From: Clostridiales bacterium
Lineage (GTDB): Bacteria > Bacillota > Clostridia > Lachnospirales > Lachnospiraceae
Direction of reading: 5' to 3'
Assembly: GCA_012518935.1 (NCBI GenBank)
Contig: JAAYRE010000032.1
Span: 1 to 41,790, forward strand
Length of the DNA: 41,790 nt
Shown: positions 4,903 to 17,610 of the stretch, in pieces
Position numbering within the stretch: position 1 is the first letter of the stretch
How the letters are laid out: each line of letters starts with the position of its first letter
The notes under the pieces: model-generated
What the model was told of the DNA's origin: nothing
The model's input: only the letters and a program-made list of their open reading frames with translations
Databases searched by the model: none
Program-made: the position numbers and the translations under genes

Positions 4903-7900
4903 TTATTTATTTACTATAACCTTGATTAGGGGGCCTCTTCCCGCCTTATTAGTGCCCCAAAGCTTTATTGCTGTCCCTTCTTGCTGAGCAGGAATCTCAA
5001 TAGTAAATTTTCCCTTGTTATCAATGGTTCCTTTATATTTTTTACTTCCTATCTGAGCATATACTCTAGTTTGAGTTTTTGCTACCTTTGAAGGTGCATT
5101 CTTAAACTCCTTGGGGGTCTTCACTTCTTCCTCTTCTTCATCTCTCTCTTCTAGGGGAGGGTTATAATCAAGAAGCTCTATGGTACCTGTAATTACCTCA
5201 TCCTTCTCATATATTGGATTCACCTTAGGAGAATCCGGTGAAACCTTAATTAACTGAGACACATAAGGATCACTGGTTCCTGAATCATTAGAGGCTAAAA
5301 CTGTGACTGATGTACCAGATTGGTCTCTATCAGTGGCAAAGGTATATACATATGCTCCTATAGTCTCATCATATTCAAATTCTGTGGTCTTATATGTCTT
5401 CTTACCAATTATAAGAGTAACCTCACAGTCCTTGATGGCAAGCACCTTAACCTCTTTGTCCGTGTTAGTTATTTCATTAAGAAGCATGGGCATATCTGGT
5501 CTTCCAGCTACTACTGTAAAAGACCTGGCCATAAGAATCTTACCATTTTCAAATCTTGTCATAATGTATATCTTATGTCCTACCTCTAAATTCTTCTCAA
5601 GACGATATTGATATCTATGCATTTCATTGGTTGATATTTTATAAAGGTTATTTGTAAACTCTGTCCCCTCTCCCTTGGCTATGGCTAAATACACGTCTCC
5701 ACTAGAATAATAATAGCCTGATATTAAATTGGATTTATCTGTTACTCGGTTCAAAGTAAGATTAGTAGAATCAGGTCTCACATAGAATTCAATATCTTTT
5801 ACTACTACTTGCAAGGGGAAGCTATTTCTTTCTTTATTATCCTTTATATCATAGGCAACAACAATCAGCTCCTGATTAGCATATAGTTGATCCTCAAATT
5901 CTAATACAAAGTTGCCCTCCTTATCAGTCATGGTAGTATAGTAATTATCACCTATTCTAAGCTCAATATTATATAGATTACCTGAAGCTTCGGGAACATA
6001 TCCCCTGATGGATTTTTCAATATTGCTCACATCATAAACTACAGGCATATTGGGAGCCTTCATACTTACTGTGACTGTACTTACCCTACTATTTCTTGAT
6101 ATGTGATCCATTGCGTAAACCTTTATAGATGTTCCTGGCAGTTGGGGTGGTAATATTAGGACAAATTGTCCCTCAGGTGAAACATCAACAATGGTTTCTA
6201 CAATTTTTAGGGAAGGATCATAGATTTCCTTATTTGCCTCAAATAACTCTCTGCCTCCATCATTAGAAACATATACTAGATCATCAATTATAGCTACAAC
6301 CGATGTAATATCATCGTAGGCATTACCAACTATATAATTCATATTATTTGAAACAGGATTGACATGGGGTTGGTTGGGTCCCGTACGATTAATCCTTACA
6401 GGAACTCGCTCACTCTCCAAGCCTCTCTCTTCATCCTTAATATATATATTAATTGTGGTATCTGCCAGTTGACCCGGAAGTGGATATGAGAATTTGCCCG
6501 TAGGTCCGATATTAATCTCATAATCCTTAGTTGGAGTCTCAATAACCAATATAGTATTTGGTTCGGCTTCTCCCTTAATATTGGATTTTCTATTGGTATA
6601 GAATTCAAAAGTAGGTTTAGCTAAAAGGTTGTCACTGAAGTTGTCAATTACAATTCTCTTAACAGCCTTATTCCCATGGATATCCTCAGCAAAGACTGTA
6701 TATATACCATTATTATGGACTGTAAATCCTTTGCTTGGTATGTCATTTTCAACAGCCCATACAGCATTGGATACATCAGTATCATCATTGGCGTACTTAA
6801 GCCTCTTAATTTTGGAATCATCCACTGCTTGTACTGCAATCTCAAAGGAACTTGCCGTTGGATTTGTTACAAGTGGAGCTATTACTATATGAGGAGCACT
6901 GGTATCCTTATTACTTGCTGGATAAGAAGCAATATAATATTTGTATTCATTCTTCTGAATCAACTCATCTACATACCATGGTGTTTCCTCAAATAAGGTG
7001 CCTGCATAGTATGGTACCTTCACAATAAATTCATAACCTGTAGGCAAAATCAATTTCCAGTTATAATCCACCTGTGGCATAATACTTCCACTGGAAGATA
7101 ACTCTTTAATATATTTTCCCAGTATAGATTGACTTCTTACAAATCCTTTTAGTACTGTCTGGTTTTCTACACCTTTGTTGGCATCTGTAGGTTTGGTTAT
7201 CTTGTTAGTTGCAATTAAAAACTCCATATCATCTGTAACTTCTTTTCCCTGATAAGTTACATTGGATACTCTTCTGTCATTATTAATAAAGTTTCCAGAA
7301 AAATCATATCTGGGAAATCTTGATATGTCAATATCATAACTGATCCCATCAAATATATAAAAATTACTCCAATCATTTAGCCATTCCTCACTGATCAGAG
7401 ATTTTAATCCTGTTTGCTTCATCAATGAGGACATAGTGTCATCTTCCCAGTAGGTGTTCCTGCTAGTAGTTTCATAAGCACTGGCAGACCATTCTAACCA
7501 CTCTTTAAGCTGAGCCCCGTTAATATAATATACATAGAGATAACTATTATAATTTTGTAAAGTAGCTAAGTCTGACTCAGTAATTTTATCTTTAATATTC
7601 ACAAAATCATAGATGGATTTAACCCCGTATGTATCATATGTTGAAGCAGCTATAATGGGATAATCCATGTATTTCTTGTCACCCTTAATCTGTTTTAAGG
7701 TATAATTAATCTTAGAGTCATTTAATAATTGAATTGCGGCATTATCTGCTAATAATCCATAATAATTTTGGATTATTGTATCTCCTTTTAATTCACCGAG
7801 AATATCTGTTGCATAATCCTTTAATTCATCTTCCCATTCTCCAAATATGGCACTAATGGACTTATCTTCACTGGTTGACTTTTCATTAACCATCCGTAGC

Positions 7901-8925
7901 TCAGACTTACGATTTACTATCTTAACCTTATCATCATTAATCTCTATCTCTAAATCAACTACCCCTATGGCCTTACCACGATCACCAGCCATTACGACAT
8001 TCTTACCATTCATAAGATAGCTTTCCTTGTTAACCCCTGGAAGCTTAAAATAAGGTGAAGTCATGTCATTAGTAGGGAAAAGATTATGTTCATGTCCACA
8101 CACCACAACATCAATTTCAGGAATTTTTGTTAAGGCATAGGCAACATTCTTAAAATTAGTCTCAGGATTTTCAGGACCAATTCCCGTATGGGAAAGGGCA
8201 ATTATTATATCAGCACCCTCTTCTTTTAATATAGCAGCTTGCTTCTGTGCATTTTCTATCATATCTTCTGTAACCAGTATCCCAGCATAACTATGGGTCT
8301 TGCTAGTAAGAGTGGGAATAGTATGACCAATGATACCAATCTTAATCTCAATCTCCTTGCCATCCCTGCTGGTTACTTTTCGGGTAAGAAGCATATTCTC
8401 AAGAAAGGGATGCTCTCCCGTTCTTGCATCGGTTACATTTGACACTACCGTAATATCACGAAGCCCTGATTCATCCAGTTGTCTAAGGATATAATCATAT
8501 CCATAATCAAAGTCATGGTTTCCCAAAGTAATGGCATCATAACCAACCTGCTTCATTGCCAGGTATATAGGTTGTGTAGCCCCTTGGTTTGTTGAAAATA
8601 TATATTCTGTTGTATAGTCAAATAATACATCACCCGCATCCAGAGTAAGAGTATTGCCCTCTGGAAGTTCAGCTCTTGTCTTATTAATTAGATCAAAAAC
8701 CCTTGCCAGTCCACCATTATTATAATCCACACCCTTTTCGTAATCAAAGCTATTAAGCTGTCCATGGAGGTCTGTGGTTCCAATAATCCTAAGATCAACC
8801 TTCTCATAATCATCTTTTGCTGCATTGGCACTGCCAAGTTTATTTGTACTTAAGCCAATAATCAGGCTAAGTGATGCAATCATCACTATTGCAAACAAAT
8901 TATATTTAACTTTCTTATGCGTCAT
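4903..8925 (-). CDS. Exported CpdB/5'-nucleotidase-family phosphoesterase with Ig-like repeat tail
   Basis: A 1340-residue secreted protein. A signal peptide covers residues 1 to about 36 (SLSLIIGLSTNKLGSANA). The metallophosphoesterase domain has TTDLHGQ (D52, H54), GNHDFDYG (N136-D138), ALSHTG and CGHEH. The 5'-nucleotidase C-terminal domain follows, with QNYYGLLADNA, TYDTYGVKSIYDF and YLYVYYINGAQLKEWLEWSA, closest in pattern to CpdB-type 2',3'-cyclic-nucleotide phosphodiesterases. From about residue 690 the protein is a chain of Ig-like beta domains about 85-100 residues long, with repeated KGKFTIEIP and GNFVLEF style turns. It ends at VIVNK with no LPXTG, SLH or dockerin. It likely scavenges extracellular nucleotides. 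Start: ATG after AAGGAGGA. Confidence 0.9.
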   Translation of the reverse strand: MTHKKVKYNLFAIVMIASLSLIIGLSTNKLGSANAAKDDYEKVDLRIIGTTDLHGQLNSFDYEKGVDYNNGGLARVFDLINKTRAELPEGNTLTLDAGDVLFDYTTEYIFSTNQGATQPIYLAMKQVGYDAITLGNHDFDYGYDYILRQLDESGLRDITVVSNVTDARTGEHPFLENMLLTRKVTSRDGKEIEIKIGIIGHTIPTLTSKTHSYAGILVTEDMIENAQKQAAILKEEGADIIIALSHTGIGPENPETNFKNVAYALTKIPEIDVVVCGHEHNLFPTNDMTSPYFKLPGVNKESYLMNGKNVVMAGDRGKAIGVVDLEIEINDDKVKIVNRKSELRMVNEKSTSEDKSISAIFGEWEDELKDYATDILGELKGDTIIQNYYGLLADNAAIQLLNDSKINYTLKQIKGDKKYMDYPIIAASTYDTYGVKSIYDFVNIKDKITESDLATLQNYNSYLYVYYINGAQLKEWLEWSASAYETTSRNTYWEDDTMSSLMKQTGLKSLISEEWLNDWSNFYIFDGISYDIDISRFPRYDFSGNFINNDRRVSNVTYQGKEVTDDMEFLIATNKITKPTDANKGVENQTVLKGFVRSQSILGKYIKELSSSGSIMPQVDYNWKLILPTGYEFIVKVPYYAGTLFEETPWYVDELIQKNEYKYYIASYPASNKDTSAPHIVIAPLVTNPTASSFEIAVQAVDDSKIKRLKYANDDTDVSNAVWAVENDIPSKGFTVHNNGIYTVFAEDIHGNKAVKRIVIDNFSDNLLAKPTFEFYTNRKSNIKGEAEPNTILVIETPTKDYEINIGPTGKFSYPLPGQLADTTINIYIKDEERGLESERVPVRINRTGPNQPHVNPVSNNMNYIVGNAYDDITSVVAIIDDLVYVSNDGGRELFEANKEIYDPSLKIVETIVDVSPEGQFVLILPPQLPGTSIKVYAMDHISRNSRVSTVTVSMKAPNMPVVYDVSNIEKSIRGYVPEASGNLYNIELRIGDNYYTTMTDKEGNFVLEFEDQLYANQELIVVAYDIKDNKERNSFPLQVVVKDIEFYVRPDSTNLTLNRVTDKSNLISGYYYSSGDVYLAIAKGEGTEFTNNLYKISTNEMHRYQYRLEKNLEVGHKIYIMTRFENGKILMARSFTVVAGRPDMPMLLNEITNTDKEVKVLAIKDCEVTLIIGKKTYKTTEFEYDETIGAYVYTFATDRDQSGTSVTVLASNDSGTSDPYVSQLIKVSPDSPKVNPIYEKDEVITGTIELLDYNPPLEERDEEEEEVKTPKEFKNAPSKVAKTQTRVYAQIGSKKYKGTIDNKGKFTIEIPAQQEGTAIKLWGTNKAGRGPLIKVIVNK

Positions 8926-11861: not shown

Positions 11862-11885
11862 AACCGCCTCTATATAGAGGCGGTT
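11862..11885 (-). terminator. T-box attenuator hairpin
   Basis: Perfect palindrome AACCGCCTCTAT/ATAGAGGCGGTT, effectively a nine-pair G/C-rich stem with a TATATA loop, followed on the minus strand by TGTTGATAT. It overlaps the part of the T-box that would otherwise form the antiterminator. This is the expected regulatory terminator of the leader. Confidence 0.9.
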
Positions 11886-12110
11886 ACTTCGCGGTTCCAC
11901 TCTAATTGAATGTCATTATGTACTTAAGCTGACATATCTCATATTCAGATAACGGCTGTAACCGAACTCGGCTAAGTTACCCCTCACCGAATCAGCTCCC
12001 GGATGCACTTCACTTATAGATACCATAAGGAGTGCTTTCAGCCGGTGACACCCCATCTCTGATACAGATCCATAAGTTACTTTTCCGTTCATAGCTTTTA
12101 ACATATTATA
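11862..12110 (-). promoter_or_regulatory. T-box leader, probable tRNA-Cys sensor
   Basis: On the minus strand the leader of cysE carries the T-box sequence AGAGTGGAACCGCGAAG (11903-11887), matching the family consensus AGGGTGGNACCGCG. It is followed by the terminator AACCGCCTCTATATAGAGGCGGTT (11885-11862) and a T-rich stretch. Upstream, Stem I can be traced: CGGA pairs with TCCG, ACTTAT pairs with ATAAGT, and the distal CAGAGATGGGGTG region follows. The specifier loop reads GAAGTGCATCC. TGC (12007-12005) followed by a purine fits Cys and the downstream cysE-cysS genes. Uncharged tRNA-Cys should stabilise the antiterminator and allow transcription. GTG, one base earlier, is the less likely specifier. 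Confidence 0.93.
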
Positions 12111-12166: not shown

Positions 12167-12712
12167 CTATTTTGAGCATCCTTTACAGCCATTACAGTTT
12201 TTTTCATTATTCATAGGTGTAACATCTACCTGGTAATTCATCATGGACTCTATAAGGCAGACGGCATTTGCAGCTATACCAAGACCTTCTCCAGTAAATC
12301 CAAGTCCTTCCTCAGTAGTTGCTTTTATATTAATCCTATCAGGCTCAATATCCAAAGCATCTGCTATATTCTTAATCATCAAAGGTATATAATTGGCTAG
12401 TTTGGGTTTTTGAGCAATAATAGTGGCATCTATATTTTCGATTAAGTAAAGCTTGTCATCAAGTAGGAGTTTTACCTTTTTTAATAGTTCAATGCTGGAT
12501 ATATCCATATAAGAATCATCCGTATCAGGAAACTGTCTGCCAATATCCCCAAGAGCTGCTGCCCCCAAGAGGGCATCCATGATTGCATGAACAAGTACAT
12601 CTGCATCGGAATGACCCAAAAGACCCTGTATATATGGAATTGTAACTCCTCCCAGAATTAACTCCCTATCCTCAACCAATCGGTGAACATCATAGCCTGT
12701 TCCAATTCTCAT
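12167..12712 (-). CDS. ispF: 2-C-methyl-D-erythritol 2,4-cyclodiphosphate synthase with Cys-rich tail
   Basis: MEP-pathway enzyme that cyclises CDP-methylerythritol 2-phosphate to the cyclodiphosphate on the way to isoprenoids. The metal ligands are D8 and H10 in GYDVHRL and H42 in the DADVLVHA segment. [21 protein letters not shown] and [18 protein letters not shown] are family signatures. The usual protein ends near residue 160. Here about 20 extra residues follow, ending [14 protein letters not shown] with C173, C176 and C179 in a C-x2-C-x2-C pattern. The ATG at 12712 has an AGGAGGT ribosome site. It lies 70 bases downstream of the phosphatase-ASKHA fusion. ispD is not in the window. Confidence 0.96.
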
Positions 12713-12782: not shown

Positions 12783-14597
12783 TTAAAATAACATATTCTG
12801 AATATATAGTTTATTAAAATTATCATCATTAGACAAATGTATCTCTTTTGTTATTGATATTATGTGCTCCAACCTTTTTAGATTATCTGATTTTCTAGCA
12901 ACTTGACTGGCTCCAAGTATTGATGTATTACCTGTTCCCTTAACCTTGTTTGCAACAAGCTCAGGAAGTAATCCAATCCTTACAGCTTTTTCTATGTCCA
13001 GATGATATCCAAAGCTTCCTGCTATATATACCTTATCAAGCTCTTTTAATGAAGTTCCAAACAGATTAACTAATATCTCTGTTCCCGCTCTAATAGCTGC
13101 CTTAGCCATCTGAAGTTGTCTAACATCCTGTTGACTAAAGCTAAAGTCAGCAAGAACAAAACCCCTATCAAAATATGGATCCTCTAATAGGCCGGTCTCG
13201 TCAATAATACCCTCTTTTAAGAGTTCAGATACCAACTCTATAATTCCTGTTCCACATAACCCAACAGGCTTCTCATCCTCAATAGTCTCATAGCTTAACC
13301 TTCCACCCTCTAGAGTAATGTGGTTAATGGCACCAGGAATGGAGCCAACACCACAAGAGACATTGACTCCTTCAAAGGCTGGACCTGCAGCGGTAGAGGT
13401 TACCAGTATCTTGTCCTTATTACCTATGGCCATTTCACCGTTGGTTCCTAAATCTATGAACATGCAAATCTCATTCTTATGGTCAAAGTCACAAGCAAGC
13501 AATCCTGATGCAATATCCCCTCCTACAAAGGTAGATATACCAGGAAGCAATATGATTGGTATCTTTTCTTCTATACAAAATATCTTGTCTGTTGATGTAT
13601 TAATAGTTTTCAAATTAATCGGAGTATAAGGATATAACCCCAGTCCATGACAGGAATAGCCCATAAAAAGATGAATCATGGTGGTATTACCGGCTATAAC
13701 TATCTTATCAATTCTATCAAAGCTTATTTTATGCTTATCTATAAGATGACGAATTCCAAGAAGAATCTCATGACGAATTAGTTGCATCAATAAGTCTCGT
13801 TTACCTTCATTGGAGGCCTTTATTCTTGAGATTACATCTGTACCATATTTTCTTTGGGGGTTTAATGCAATATATTCACCCACTGCATTCCCATCTGATA
13901 ATGATAACAAACTAAGAACTAAGGTTGTGGTTCCAGTATCAACTGCCACAGCATATTTATCTGAATCAACTGTATTATATATTTTTTCTGTTCTATCTGC
14001 TATATCTGAATTCATTGTCATTACCATAAATTCATCTGGGGATAGATTAAAAGATTCTATCTTAAGCTTTGAATCTTCATATGTAAGTGTGCTGATACAT
14101 GAATTTTTTAACCTGGTCTTTCCTGAGCCTTCATCTCCACCAGATAAAACAGAAAGTACGGCATTAATTGCCGCTCCATGTGATACCATTATTATATCTT
14201 GATCTTTATACTTCTCTATATTTCTATAAATACAATCAAGAAGCCTTTTGCATAATTCATCAAAAGGCTCCATTGATTTTTCTTCCCTACCGAAAGTATC
14301 AAAATACTTCCTTCTATCATAGGACATACCTGATAAAATACCAAATTCCCGCTCTATCAAATCCTCATCAATGATTACATCAGACCCAGCAAGACCTTCA
14401 GAAATAATCTTGGCAGTCTCTACAGCACGAATAAGAGGGCTGGTTAAAACAACTCTTACCCCCGTATCCCTTAGTGCTTCCTTGGCTCTTCCGGCTTGTA
14501 TTCTTCCTGTCTCATTAAGCTCGATGTCTTCTCTGCCTTGAAGTCTGCCCTGTAGATTCCAGTCAGTCTCCCCATGACGGATTAAATAGATTTTCAT
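12783..14597 (-). CDS. Fusion of histidine phosphatase and RACE/DUF4445 ASKHA domain
   Basis: One uninterrupted frame encodes two unrelated enzymes. Residues 1 to about 190 are a phosphoglycerate-mutase/CobC-like histidine phosphatase: LIRHGETDWNLQGRLQG with catalytic H8, LTSPLIRAVETA, EREFGILSG, and the second histidine H140 in VSHGAA. Residues from about 215 are the ASKHA ATPase domain of corrinoid-protein reductive activators (DUF4445): AVDTGTTTLVLSLL, ALNPQRKYGTDVISRI, FIDLGTNGEMAIG, AAGPAFEGVNVSCG and YIAGSFGYHLDIEKA. The N-terminal 2Fe-2S domain usual in RamA-type activators is absent. The track TTG start lies in the ribosome site. The ATG at 14597 follows TGGAGGCTACTT and gives 604 residues. 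It is 20 bases downstream of pflA. Confidence 0.88.
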   Translation of the reverse strand: MKIYLIRHGETDWNLQGRLQGREDIELNETGRIQAGRAKEALRDTGVRVVLTSPLIRAVETAKIISEGLAGSDVIIDEDLIEREFGILSGMSYDRRKYFDTFGREEKSMEPFDELCKRLLDCIYRNIEKYKDQDIIMVSHGAAINAVLSVLSGGDEGSGKTRLKNSCISTLTYEDSKLKIESFNLSPDEFMVMTMNSDIADRTEKIYNTVDSDKYAVAVDTGTTTLVLSLLSLSDGNAVGEYIALNPQRKYGTDVISRIKASNEGKRDLLMQLIRHEILLGIRHLIDKHKISFDRIDKIVIAGNTTMIHLFMGYSCHGLGLYPYTPINLKTINTSTDKIFCIEEKIPIILLPGISTFVGGDIASGLLACDFDHKNEICMFIDLGTNGEMAIGNKDKILVTSTAAGPAFEGVNVSCGVGSIPGAINHITLEGGRLSYETIEDEKPVGLCGTGIIELVSELLKEGIIDETGLLEDPYFDRGFVLADFSFSQQDVRQLQMAKAAIRAGTEILVNLFGTSLKELDKVYIAGSFGYHLDIEKAVRIGLLPELVANKVKGTGNTSILGASQVARKSDNLKRLEHIISITKEIHLSNDDNFNKLYIQNMLF

Positions 14598-14617
14598 AAG
14601 TAGCCTCCAGAAATATA

Positions 14618-15358
14618 TCAAGTATTTGTAGAAACCACTTTTCCATTGGTTTCAAAAATCTCAATTACTTGTTGCATAAGTTCCTTGCTTGGTTCCTTGG
14701 TGTCATGCAACTTATAATCTAGACCAAGTTCCTCCCATTTATATTCACCCATTTTGTGAAATGGAAGTAGCTCGATTTTCTCCACATTGGGATATTCATC
14801 AAGATGAGCTGATAACCTTCTTACACTATCAAGATTATCCGTTAAGTTGGGTACTAGGATATATCTAACCCAGGTAGCTACATTCTTTTCCCTAAGATAA
14901 TCTAGGAAATTCAGTGTAGGACTTAATGATACCCCTGTTACATTTTTATATACAATCGGGTCATAATTCTTAATATCAAGAAGTACTAAGTCGGTATATT
15001 CCATAAGCTCTTTAATAGTATTATTAAAGATATATCCAGAAGTATCAATAGCAACAGAAATACCATTTTCTTTACACTTCTTACTTACTTCTAGTATAAA
15101 CTCAGCTTGTAGCAGAGGCTCGCCACCTGTAAAGGTGACACCTCCACTAGAATGTTTAATATAAGCTTTATATTTTAGGATTTCTTCCATTAATTTATCA
15201 GGTGTATATTCATCACCCAAGGTTACATCCCATGTATCAGGATTATGGCAAAACTGGCATCGCAGGGGACATCCCTGCATAAAGACCACAAAGCGTATCC
15301 CGGGTCCATCTACAGTACCAAAACTCTCCAACGAATGTATTCGTCCAAGTTTACTCAT
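14618..15358 (-). CDS. pflA: Pyruvate formate-lyase activating enzyme
   Basis: Radical-SAM enzyme that abstracts hydrogen from the PflB glycine to make the active glycyl radical. The 4Fe-4S cysteines are C30, C34 and C37 in MQGCPLRCQFCHNP. VTFTGGEPLLQ is the SAM-binding GGE motif. The length of 246 is typical, and no extra ferredoxin insert is present, as expected for a PFL rather than a dehydratase activase. The ATG at 15358 has AAGGATGG upstream. It follows pflB by 26 bases and precedes the phosphatase-ASKHA fusion by 20, so the three very likely share a transcript. Confidence 0.97.
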   Translation of the reverse strand: MSKLGRIHSLESFGTVDGPGIRFVVFMQGCPLRCQFCHNPDTWDVTLGDEYTPDKLMEEILKYKAYIKHSSGGVTFTGGEPLLQAEFILEVSKKCKENGISVAIDTSGYIFNNTIKELMEYTDLVLLDIKNYDPIVYKNVTGVSLSPTLNFLDYLREKNVATWVRYILVPNLTDNLDSVRRLSAHLDEYPNVEKIELLPFHKMGEYKWEELGLDYKLHDTKEPSKELMQQVIEIFETNGKVVSTNT

Positions 15359-15384: not shown

Positions 15385-17610
15385 CTATCTCTTATGGAAT
15401 GTACGATTTATAACGTCTAGTTGTTGCTCCCTATTAAGTTTGACAAAGTTAACAGCATAACCGGATACACGAATAGTAAGTTGAGGATACTTCTCTGGAT
15501 GTTCCATTGCATCTATCAGAGTCTCACGGTCAAATACATTAACATTAATGTGATGTCCTTTACTCTCAAAATAACCATCTAATAAACCCACAAGATTATT
15601 AACTCTATCTTCTTTATCCTTACCCAATGCCTTAGGTACGATTGAGAATGTATAAGAAATTCCATCCTCCGCATGCCTATAAGGTAATTTAGCAACAGAT
15701 GCCATGGATGCCACTGCACCATTCTTATCCCTTCCATGCATTGGATTTGCTCCTGGAGCAAATGGTTCGCCAGCTTTTCTACCATCTGGTGTACTTCCTG
15801 TCTTCTTGCCATATACAACATTGGATGTTATGGTAAGGACTGACAATGTCGGTATTGCATCACGGTAAGTTTTTACTTTACGAAGCTTATTCATAAAGCG
15901 TTCTACTATTTCAATTGCAATTTGGTCAACACGGTCGTCATTATTACCATAGGCAGGATAATCTCCTTCTATCTCATAATCTGTAGCCAGACCTGCTTCA
16001 TTACGTATTACCTTAACTTTGGCATATTTAATAGCAGATAGGGAGTCCGCTACTACAGATAATCCTGCTATTCCACATGCTTCTGTACGCAATACATCCT
16101 TATCATGTAGTGCCATCTGTAATCTTTCGTAGTTATATTTATCATGCATGTAGTGAATTACGTTAAGGGTATTAATATATAATTCTGAGAGCCATTCTAG
16201 AGTCTGGTCAAACTTTGTTACAACTTCGTCATAATCAAGATATTCGCTTGTAATAGGTGCAAACATAGGACCAACCTGGTCTCCTGACTTCTCATCCTTA
16301 CCACCATTAATTGTATATAATAGTGCCTTAGCAAGGTTTGCCCGTGCACCAAAGAACTGCATCTGCTTACCAATTCTCATAGCTGATACACAGCAAGCAA
16401 TTCCATAGTCATCGCCCCAGTAATCTCTCATCAAATCATCGTTCTCATACTGGATAGAGCTGGTATCTATGGAAACCTTGGAACAGAATCTCTTAAATGG
16501 TTCAGGCAAAGATACAGACCAAAGTACAGTTAGGTTTGGCTCTGGTGCAGGTCCCAGATTATACAAGGTGTTCAATATTCTGAAACTGCTCTTAGTAACA
16601 AGGGTTCTTCCGTCAACTCCCATGCCACCGATAGATTCTGTAACCCAGGTAGGATCTCCTGAGAAAAGATCATTATATTCCGGTGTACGAAGGAATCTAA
16701 CCATACGTAATTTCATTACGAATTGATCCATTAACTCTTGAACTTCTTGCTCAGTTATTAAGCCATTTTTTAAATCTCTTTCATAATATATATCCAGGAA
16801 TGTGGACACACGGCCAAGACTCATAGCCGCACCGTCTTGTTCCTTAATAGCTCCAAGATATGCAAAATAAGTCCACTGAGTAGCCTCAAAGGAGTTTTTT
16901 GCAGGTACACTAATATCATAACCGTATGATGCTGCCATTTCCTTCAGTTGCTTTAATGCCTTAATCTGCTCAGATAATTCCTCACGCTGACGAATATCTG
17001 GAGAACCAAGTGAAGGATTTTCAAGAAGTTTTTTCTCATGAAGTTTTTCTTCAATTAAATAATCCACTCCATAAAGAGCTACTCTACGATAATCTCCGAT
17101 TATTCTTCCTCTGCCGTAAGCATCAGGTAGTCCAGTGATTATTCCTGAATGTCTTGCCTTTCTCATAGCATCTGTATAAGCATCAAATACTCCATCATTA
17201 TGGGTCTTACGATTGTCTGTGAATATTTGCTCTGTAGTCTTATCAAGAGTATATCCATAGGAATCCAGTGCTTTTTTAACAACACGGATTCCACCGTTGG
17301 GCATAATACCTCTCTTTAAAGGTTTATCTGTCTGAAAACCTACAATAACTTCATTATCTTTATCTAAATATCCAGGACCAAAGGTAGTTATTGTAGAAGG
17401 TCTTAAAGTCTCCGCATCAATAATTCCTTTTTTATTCTCTTCCTTCATAAGCTCCTTAACTTGTTCAAAAAGCTTAAGAGTTCTTTCTGTAGGCCCTGTT
17501 AAGAATGAATCGTCACCTTCATAGGGTGTATAATTATGTTGTATAAAGCTTCTGACATTTACATCTGTCACCCAGCTTCCAGGTTCAAAGCCTTGCCATT
17601 CTTGTCTCAT
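15385..17610 (-). CDS. pflB: Formate C-acetyltransferase (pyruvate formate-lyase)
   Basis: Glycyl-radical enzyme converting pyruvate and CoA to acetyl-CoA and formate in anaerobic sugar fermentation. The adjacent catalytic cysteines C406 and C407 are in [11 protein letters not shown]. The radical glycine is G717 in [11 protein letters not shown], 25 residues from the end. The N-terminal [20 protein letters not shown] and 741-residue length match true PflB rather than diol or glycerol dehydratases. The ATG at 17610 has AAGGAGG upstream. A strong promoter and a Fur-type dyad precede it. Its presence marks a mixed-acid or ethanol-type anaerobic fermenter. Confidence 0.98.

Follow-up and report, generated by a model that had tools for sequence, protein, structure and literature searches.

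In the window, the 41,790-nucleotide stretch of DNA analyzed here, one open reading frame joins a histidine phosphatase (HP) to the ASKHA portion of a corrinoid activator of the RACo type, and the ferredoxin (Fer2) domain is absent. This HP-RACo fusion is genuine, conserved, and rare. With a probability of about 60%, we favor the account that it was born of a deletion and acts as an ATP-driven reactivator of the methionine synthase MetH, supplied with electrons in trans and carrying an HP half that works independently. Its interest lies less in the phosphatase than in a corrinoid activator surviving without its electron-carrying domain.

Structure and conservation of the HP-RACo fusion

The gene lies on the minus strand (12783-14597), running from an ATG at 14597 to a stop codon ending at 12783 and encoding 604 aa; a GGAGG read directly in the sequence upstream (14604-14608, minus strand) is its likely ribosome-binding site. 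Using hmmscan against Pfam, the HP domain (residues 3-184; 14046-14591, minus strand) was recognized by His_Phos_1 (PF00300; 154 bits, E 5e-45). The second half was recognized by Raco_middle (PF17651; 149 bits, E 1e-43), covering the first half of ASKHA (residues 215-373; 13479-13955, minus strand), and by RACo_C_ter (PF14574; 236 bits, E 6e-70) in the C-terminal ASKHA region (residues 376-603; 12789-13472, minus strand), all three matches being well over their cut-offs. The HP motifs RHGETDW (residue 7), SPLIRA (53), EREFG (82), and VSHGAA (138) are intact, as are the ASKHA motifs DTGTTT (220), GGDIASG (359), DLGTNGEMAIG (382), AAGPAFEG (403), and GLCGTG (446). With its PF00300 match and both the RHG and second-histidine motifs, the HP half belongs to branch 1 of the histidine phosphatase superfamily. 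By phmmer, the first half aligns to PhoE-like and phosphoglycerate-mutase-like phosphatases and the second to RACo (3ZYY/4C1N; E ~1e-62).

Between the two domains, alignments to separate HP and RACo genes delimit a junction (residues 185-214; 13956-14045, minus strand), in which HP runs to its normal C-terminal tail (NLSPxEF); some 25 linker residues without conservation come next, and ASKHA begins after them. This is the spot where Fer2 is absent: hmmscan gave no Fer2 match in the fusion protein, and inspection found no cysteine, hence no cysteine motif, in the linker. The sequence-only reading had proposed a single frame carrying a complete RHG phosphatase and a complete ASKHA domain of a RACo-type corrinoid activator, with the normal Fe-S ferredoxin domain missing. 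The Pfam domains, the intact motifs, the alignment to 3ZYY/4C1N, and the unmatched Fer2 bear this out.

The window is contig C168 of a fragmented draft genome (2.33 Mb, 218 contigs, 87% complete), in which a profile search found a single RACo_C_ter match. Fragmentation of this kind might point to an assembly or binning artefact, but when 33 other genomes of the genus were examined, a single one, G163, proved to have a full-length copy of the fusion (608 aa, 69% identity), likewise flanked by pflA and ispF. Because this independent copy differs at 31% of the protein sequence, keeps the same gene order, and shows low dN/dS, the chance of an artefact is negligible. When the two fusions are compared (Nei-Gojobori), dN/dS comes to 0.11 in HP and 0.15 in ASKHA and reaches 0.64 in the short linker, figures that are approximate because dS exceeds 1; both halves are under purifying selection in the two species. 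The linkers differ by in-frame indels, and both domains remain in frame. Of the 73 columns conserved among Fer2-bearing relatives, 71 are retained in the window frame and 71-72 across both fusions. Separate translation of ASKHA from an internal start was considered and rejected: no ribosome-binding site was seen in the linker, and its Met codons are absent from G163, whose own linker offers no Met codon usable as the start of the second half.

No other HP-RACo fusion was found in overlapping samples of 150 family genera, 392 order genomes, and 391 class genomes, with the limit that strongly diverged fusions could have escaped the order and class searches because these used strict E-value limits. 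A scan of named genomes gave no further fusion among the matches listed, which were ordinary phosphatases. Several candidates were rejected. An apparent 828-aa frame with both domains in G159 consists of two ORFs of 199 and 518 aa; RACos of ~600 aa in G733, G872, and G619, from another family of the class, have an N-terminus resembling a MetH activation domain and not HP; and in G227, where the match extended into the HP half, the N-terminus is of that kind too and the frame is longer (read by eye). The sequence-only reading had allowed for a stop codon or frameshift between the domains, or for a widespread fusion with an unrelated function. No such interruption is present, G163 carries the same fusion independently, and the fusion is rare.

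Gene order, origin of the fusion, and the HP half

As had been noted earlier, the fusion lies directly behind pflB, encoding pyruvate formate-lyase (15385-17610, minus strand; TIGR01255 above cut-off), and pflA, encoding its activating enzyme (14618-15358, minus strand; TIGR02493 above cut-off), and starts ~20 bp after the latter. Downstream is an ispF-like gene (12167-12712, minus strand; MECDP-synthase type, named by eye), which by synteny marks the RACo locus across the genus. In G159, G162, and G164, HP and Fer2-RACo are separate adjacent genes in the order pflB-pflA-HP-RACo-ispF-cysE-cysS; pieces at contig ends in G157 and G176 are consistent with this order, and extra genes stand between HP and RACo in G152, G153, G166, G170, and G180. 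Relative to the separate genes, the fusion lacks the HP stop codon, the spacer, and the Fer2 domain, and its HP half is 60-68% identical to the separate HP genes of close relatives. When 77 ASKHA domains were placed in a tree, the two fusions grouped together (100/100) among Fer2-bearing sequences, demonstrating their shared ancestry; next to this clade are seven genomes with Fer2-RACo beside ispF.

A single in-frame deletion is the simplest account of the fusion. In the ancestor of the two species, such a deletion would have joined the HP gene to the neighboring RACo-type activator gene, taking out the HP stop codon, the intergenic bases, and the N-terminal [2Fe-2S] domain of the activator, after which the two remaining halves would both have stayed under purifying selection.

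Two further features of the window may be mentioned here. A T-box leader (RF00230, 108 bits; 11873-12101, minus strand) lies upstream of the cysE-like and cysS-like genes, and a 1340-aa protein (4903-8925, minus strand) combines metallophosphatase, 5'-nucleotidase C-terminal, and Ig-like (Big_6) domains.

The position behind pflB-pflA had suggested a role in glycyl-radical enzyme upkeep, with the protein serving pyruvate formate-lyase, and the co-directional arrangement 20 bp from pflA fits such a role. Across much of the genus, HP and pflA are at most a few genes apart, which fits it too and also means that the association of HP with pfl predates the fusion. In many genus members, on the other hand, RACo is located apart from pfl, and its presence tracks MetH, not pfl. 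The pfl genes are better viewed as an inherited neighborhood (pflB-pflA-HP-RACo-ispF) and pflA as a neighbor, not a functional part of the fusion; we consider a role in serving pyruvate formate-lyase very improbable.

Since gene order and a deletion explain the fusion, it should not be read as a shared pathway. The contrary reading is that HP and ASKHA serve one reaction or regulatory circuit, either by joining nucleotide-loop chemistry to activation or through control of the activator by the phosphatase, and that the fusion was selected for that; its retention in two species and the adjacency of HP and RACo in several relatives speak for it. However, HP reaches 79 bits against the CobC model TIGR03162, far below the cut-off of 162.9, and cobS (PF02654) gave no match in the window genome or G163 and was not found in 30 of the 34 genus genomes, among which HP is common. 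On these results HP as CobC was rejected, and the corrinoid nucleotide-loop link put forward from sequence alone is not supported. RACo, moreover, is present with no close HP at the locus in G150, G151, and G165, HP is at the locus and RACo elsewhere in G167 and G168, and the family, order, and class samples yielded no other fusion of the two. A shared reaction is, in our estimate, quite unlikely.

HP also stays below the cut-offs of cofactor-dependent phosphoglycerate mutase (NF038349; 98 bits, cut-off 225) and of the other named families listed. Because the window genome encodes iPGM, HP is not its only phosphoglycerate mutase; in the draft G163, no match to iPGM was obtained. HP is probably an attached phosphatase, an RHG-type enzyme that would work independently of ASKHA and whose attachment would reflect gene order more than a joint reaction.

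Methionine synthase as likely client and the loss of Fer2

Both a PF02607 protein and RACo are present in 29 of the 34 genus genomes (window genome included), and the PF02607 protein is in most genus genomes a MetH of ~830 aa. A single RACo alongside a MetH devoid of an activation domain is the usual situation in the genus. G173 (99% complete) has neither RACo nor MetH, and G171 is the one genus genome combining MetH and PF02965 with no RACo. G156 has only the PF02607 protein, and G175 and G182 have only RACo, these three genomes being 61-82% complete. A profile search found PF02965 in no genus genome other than G171, the window genome included. In G171, MetH (788 aa) adjoins the separate PF02965 activation protein (L237:8065-11119).

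The window genome yielded a single PF02607 protein, a MetH of 826 aa encoded on a contig other than the window (C205). It has homocysteine, folate, cap, and B12 domains but lacks an activation domain, so that a MetH lacking PF02965 stands in a genome (87% complete) in which no PF02965 was found. MetE was found neither in the window genome nor in G163; because both are drafts (87-89% complete), the sequence they lack could contain MetE, PF02965, or Fer2 as a separate gene. Ferredoxin-DUF4445 proteins have been genetically linked to the reactivation of MetH lacking PF02965 (PMC5764234). From the pairing of RACo with MetH, the missing activation domain of MetH, the presence of PF02965 instead in G171, and the lack of both in G173, we infer that MetH is the likely client of the fusion. 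In G172, G178, and G180, RACo may serve other clients too, because additional PF02607 proteins occur there. The earlier suggestion of a new activator or repair factor survives in reduced form, as an altered reactivator, most likely of MetH.

When RACo binds ATP, its [2Fe-2S] cluster is thought to pass an electron to Co(II) (PMC4934906). Work on O-demethylases describes every known ATP-driven activator of this type as an Fe/S protein that receives electrons from ferredoxin or flavodoxin (PMC6739815), so that function of the fusion without Fer2 is a prediction. Three RACo-bearing genomes of the genus, and no others, lack a RACo-type Fer2: the window genome, G163, and G169. The Fer2 match that is left in the window genome is an [FeFe] hydrogenase. 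With no Fer2, no cysteine motif in the linker, and no RACo-type Fer2 found in the genome, the fusion has no Fe-S domain of its own as donor. We propose that the ASKHA half probably still binds ATP and the Co(II)-cobalamin domain of MetH and makes reduction to Co(I) possible, with a soluble ferredoxin or flavodoxin, not a built-in cluster, supplying the electron in trans.

The main alternative is that ASKHA has lost the ability to reduce a corrinoid and now serves as an ATP-dependent binding or chaperone domain, for instance in handling MetH-bound cobalamin or in controlling the phosphatase; something else would then carry out reactivation, or it would not take place. The loss of Fer2, with no RACo-type Fer2 left in either genome, agrees with such a change. 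So do two fusion-specific or rare substitutions at conserved sites, G528S (AGSFG for AGGFG) in both fusions and V/I after GPAFEG, which could alter function. The cobalt ligand Ser398 of RACo is also replaced, by Ala; this is no sign of degeneration, Ala being usual here (70 of 77). Against a repurposed ASKHA, no PF02965 or MetE was found to take over, nearly all conserved columns are retained, and the tree path lengths of the fusions are not above those of their Fer2-bearing sisters, and we regard it as unlikely. Decay of the activator half, which would then persist solely through the need for the phosphatase, would be compatible with the lost Fer2 and is illustrated by G169 (see below), but it is barely credible with an ASKHA dN/dS of ~0.15 and intact motifs in both species.

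We retain MetH reactivation with electrons supplied in trans as the preferred reading. Two species keep an ASKHA motor under selection without a cluster, with MetH as the only methionine synthase found, and thereby offer a natural test of the need for a built-in carrier. The fusion pair would likewise show if the ATPase domain is enough by itself and what the source of the electron is.

Other Fer2-less RACos and comparison with known systems

Fer2-less RACos occur in other lineages as well. ASKHA-only ORFs were found in G084, G011, G065, and G508, and the surrounding sequence that was inspected contained no Fer2 gene in any of them; many of the Fer2-less examples were picked for shortness and Fer2 was looked for near the ORFs only, and their number is not a frequency estimate. 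Somewhat short of even odds, we would extend the argument as follows: a cluster-free activator drives ATP-dependent MetH reactivation with electrons in trans, Fer2-less activators arose more than once, the rule that such activators must contain a cluster is wrong, and the phosphatase occupies the freed N-terminus.

Within the genus, G169 has a 364-aa ASKHA beside ispF (L215:5803-6897) in which gaps fall on conserved columns; its genome also contains fragments of MetE. This is apparently a second, independent loss of Fer2, and it serves as a warning that such loss can accompany decay.

Other RACos are altered at the N-terminus. A short N-terminus with several cysteines replaces Fer2 in G297 (L224:207-1523), G414 (L226:5991-7304), G264 (L229:4963-6351), and G135 (L220:5982-7253), possibly forming a different cluster or metal site. 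ASKHA-only proteins of 358-359 aa in G129 (L222:5116-6195) and G070 (L223:4934-6010) share their gene order, with neighbors of similar sizes; their ASKHA is diverged (50-54 of the 73 conserved columns), and they perhaps have another function. Many RACos carry an N-terminal domain of ~215 aa that is unrecognized by Pfam, for example in G172 (L044:433-2712), G093 (L003:520-2724), G733 (L247:1498-3300), and G872 (L248:901-2688). In hhalign, a profile of this domain aligned with the MetH activation protein that G171 encodes separately (E 8e-7, probability 92), so the domain looks like a fused relative of the MetH activation domain; in G733 and G872 it is present and Fer2 is absent.

Among known systems, RACo itself (3ZYY/4C1N) aligns with the fusion ASKHA over residues 211-566 and has the ATP-binding motifs in common with it. 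The fusion differs in having no [2Fe-2S] domain, in being joined to HP, in carrying Ala at the position of Ser398, as most relatives here do, and in its AcsV score (283, cut-off 800). RamA-like/ferredoxin-DUF4445 proteins (PMC5764234) belong to the same ASKHA family, and the MetH of the window genome likewise lacks PF02965; they have a ferredoxin domain, whereas the fusion has HP in its place. The separate Fer2-RACos of the genus (such as L155:7030-8583 in G164) have an orthologous ASKHA at the same locus, 57-59% identical, but in them Fer2 is present and HP is not attached. On the phosphatase side, the HP half aligns with PhoE-like broad-specificity phosphatases (PDB 1H2E, 1EBB; E 1e-13) and has their catalytic motifs, although these enzymes, unlike the fusion, are single-domain proteins.
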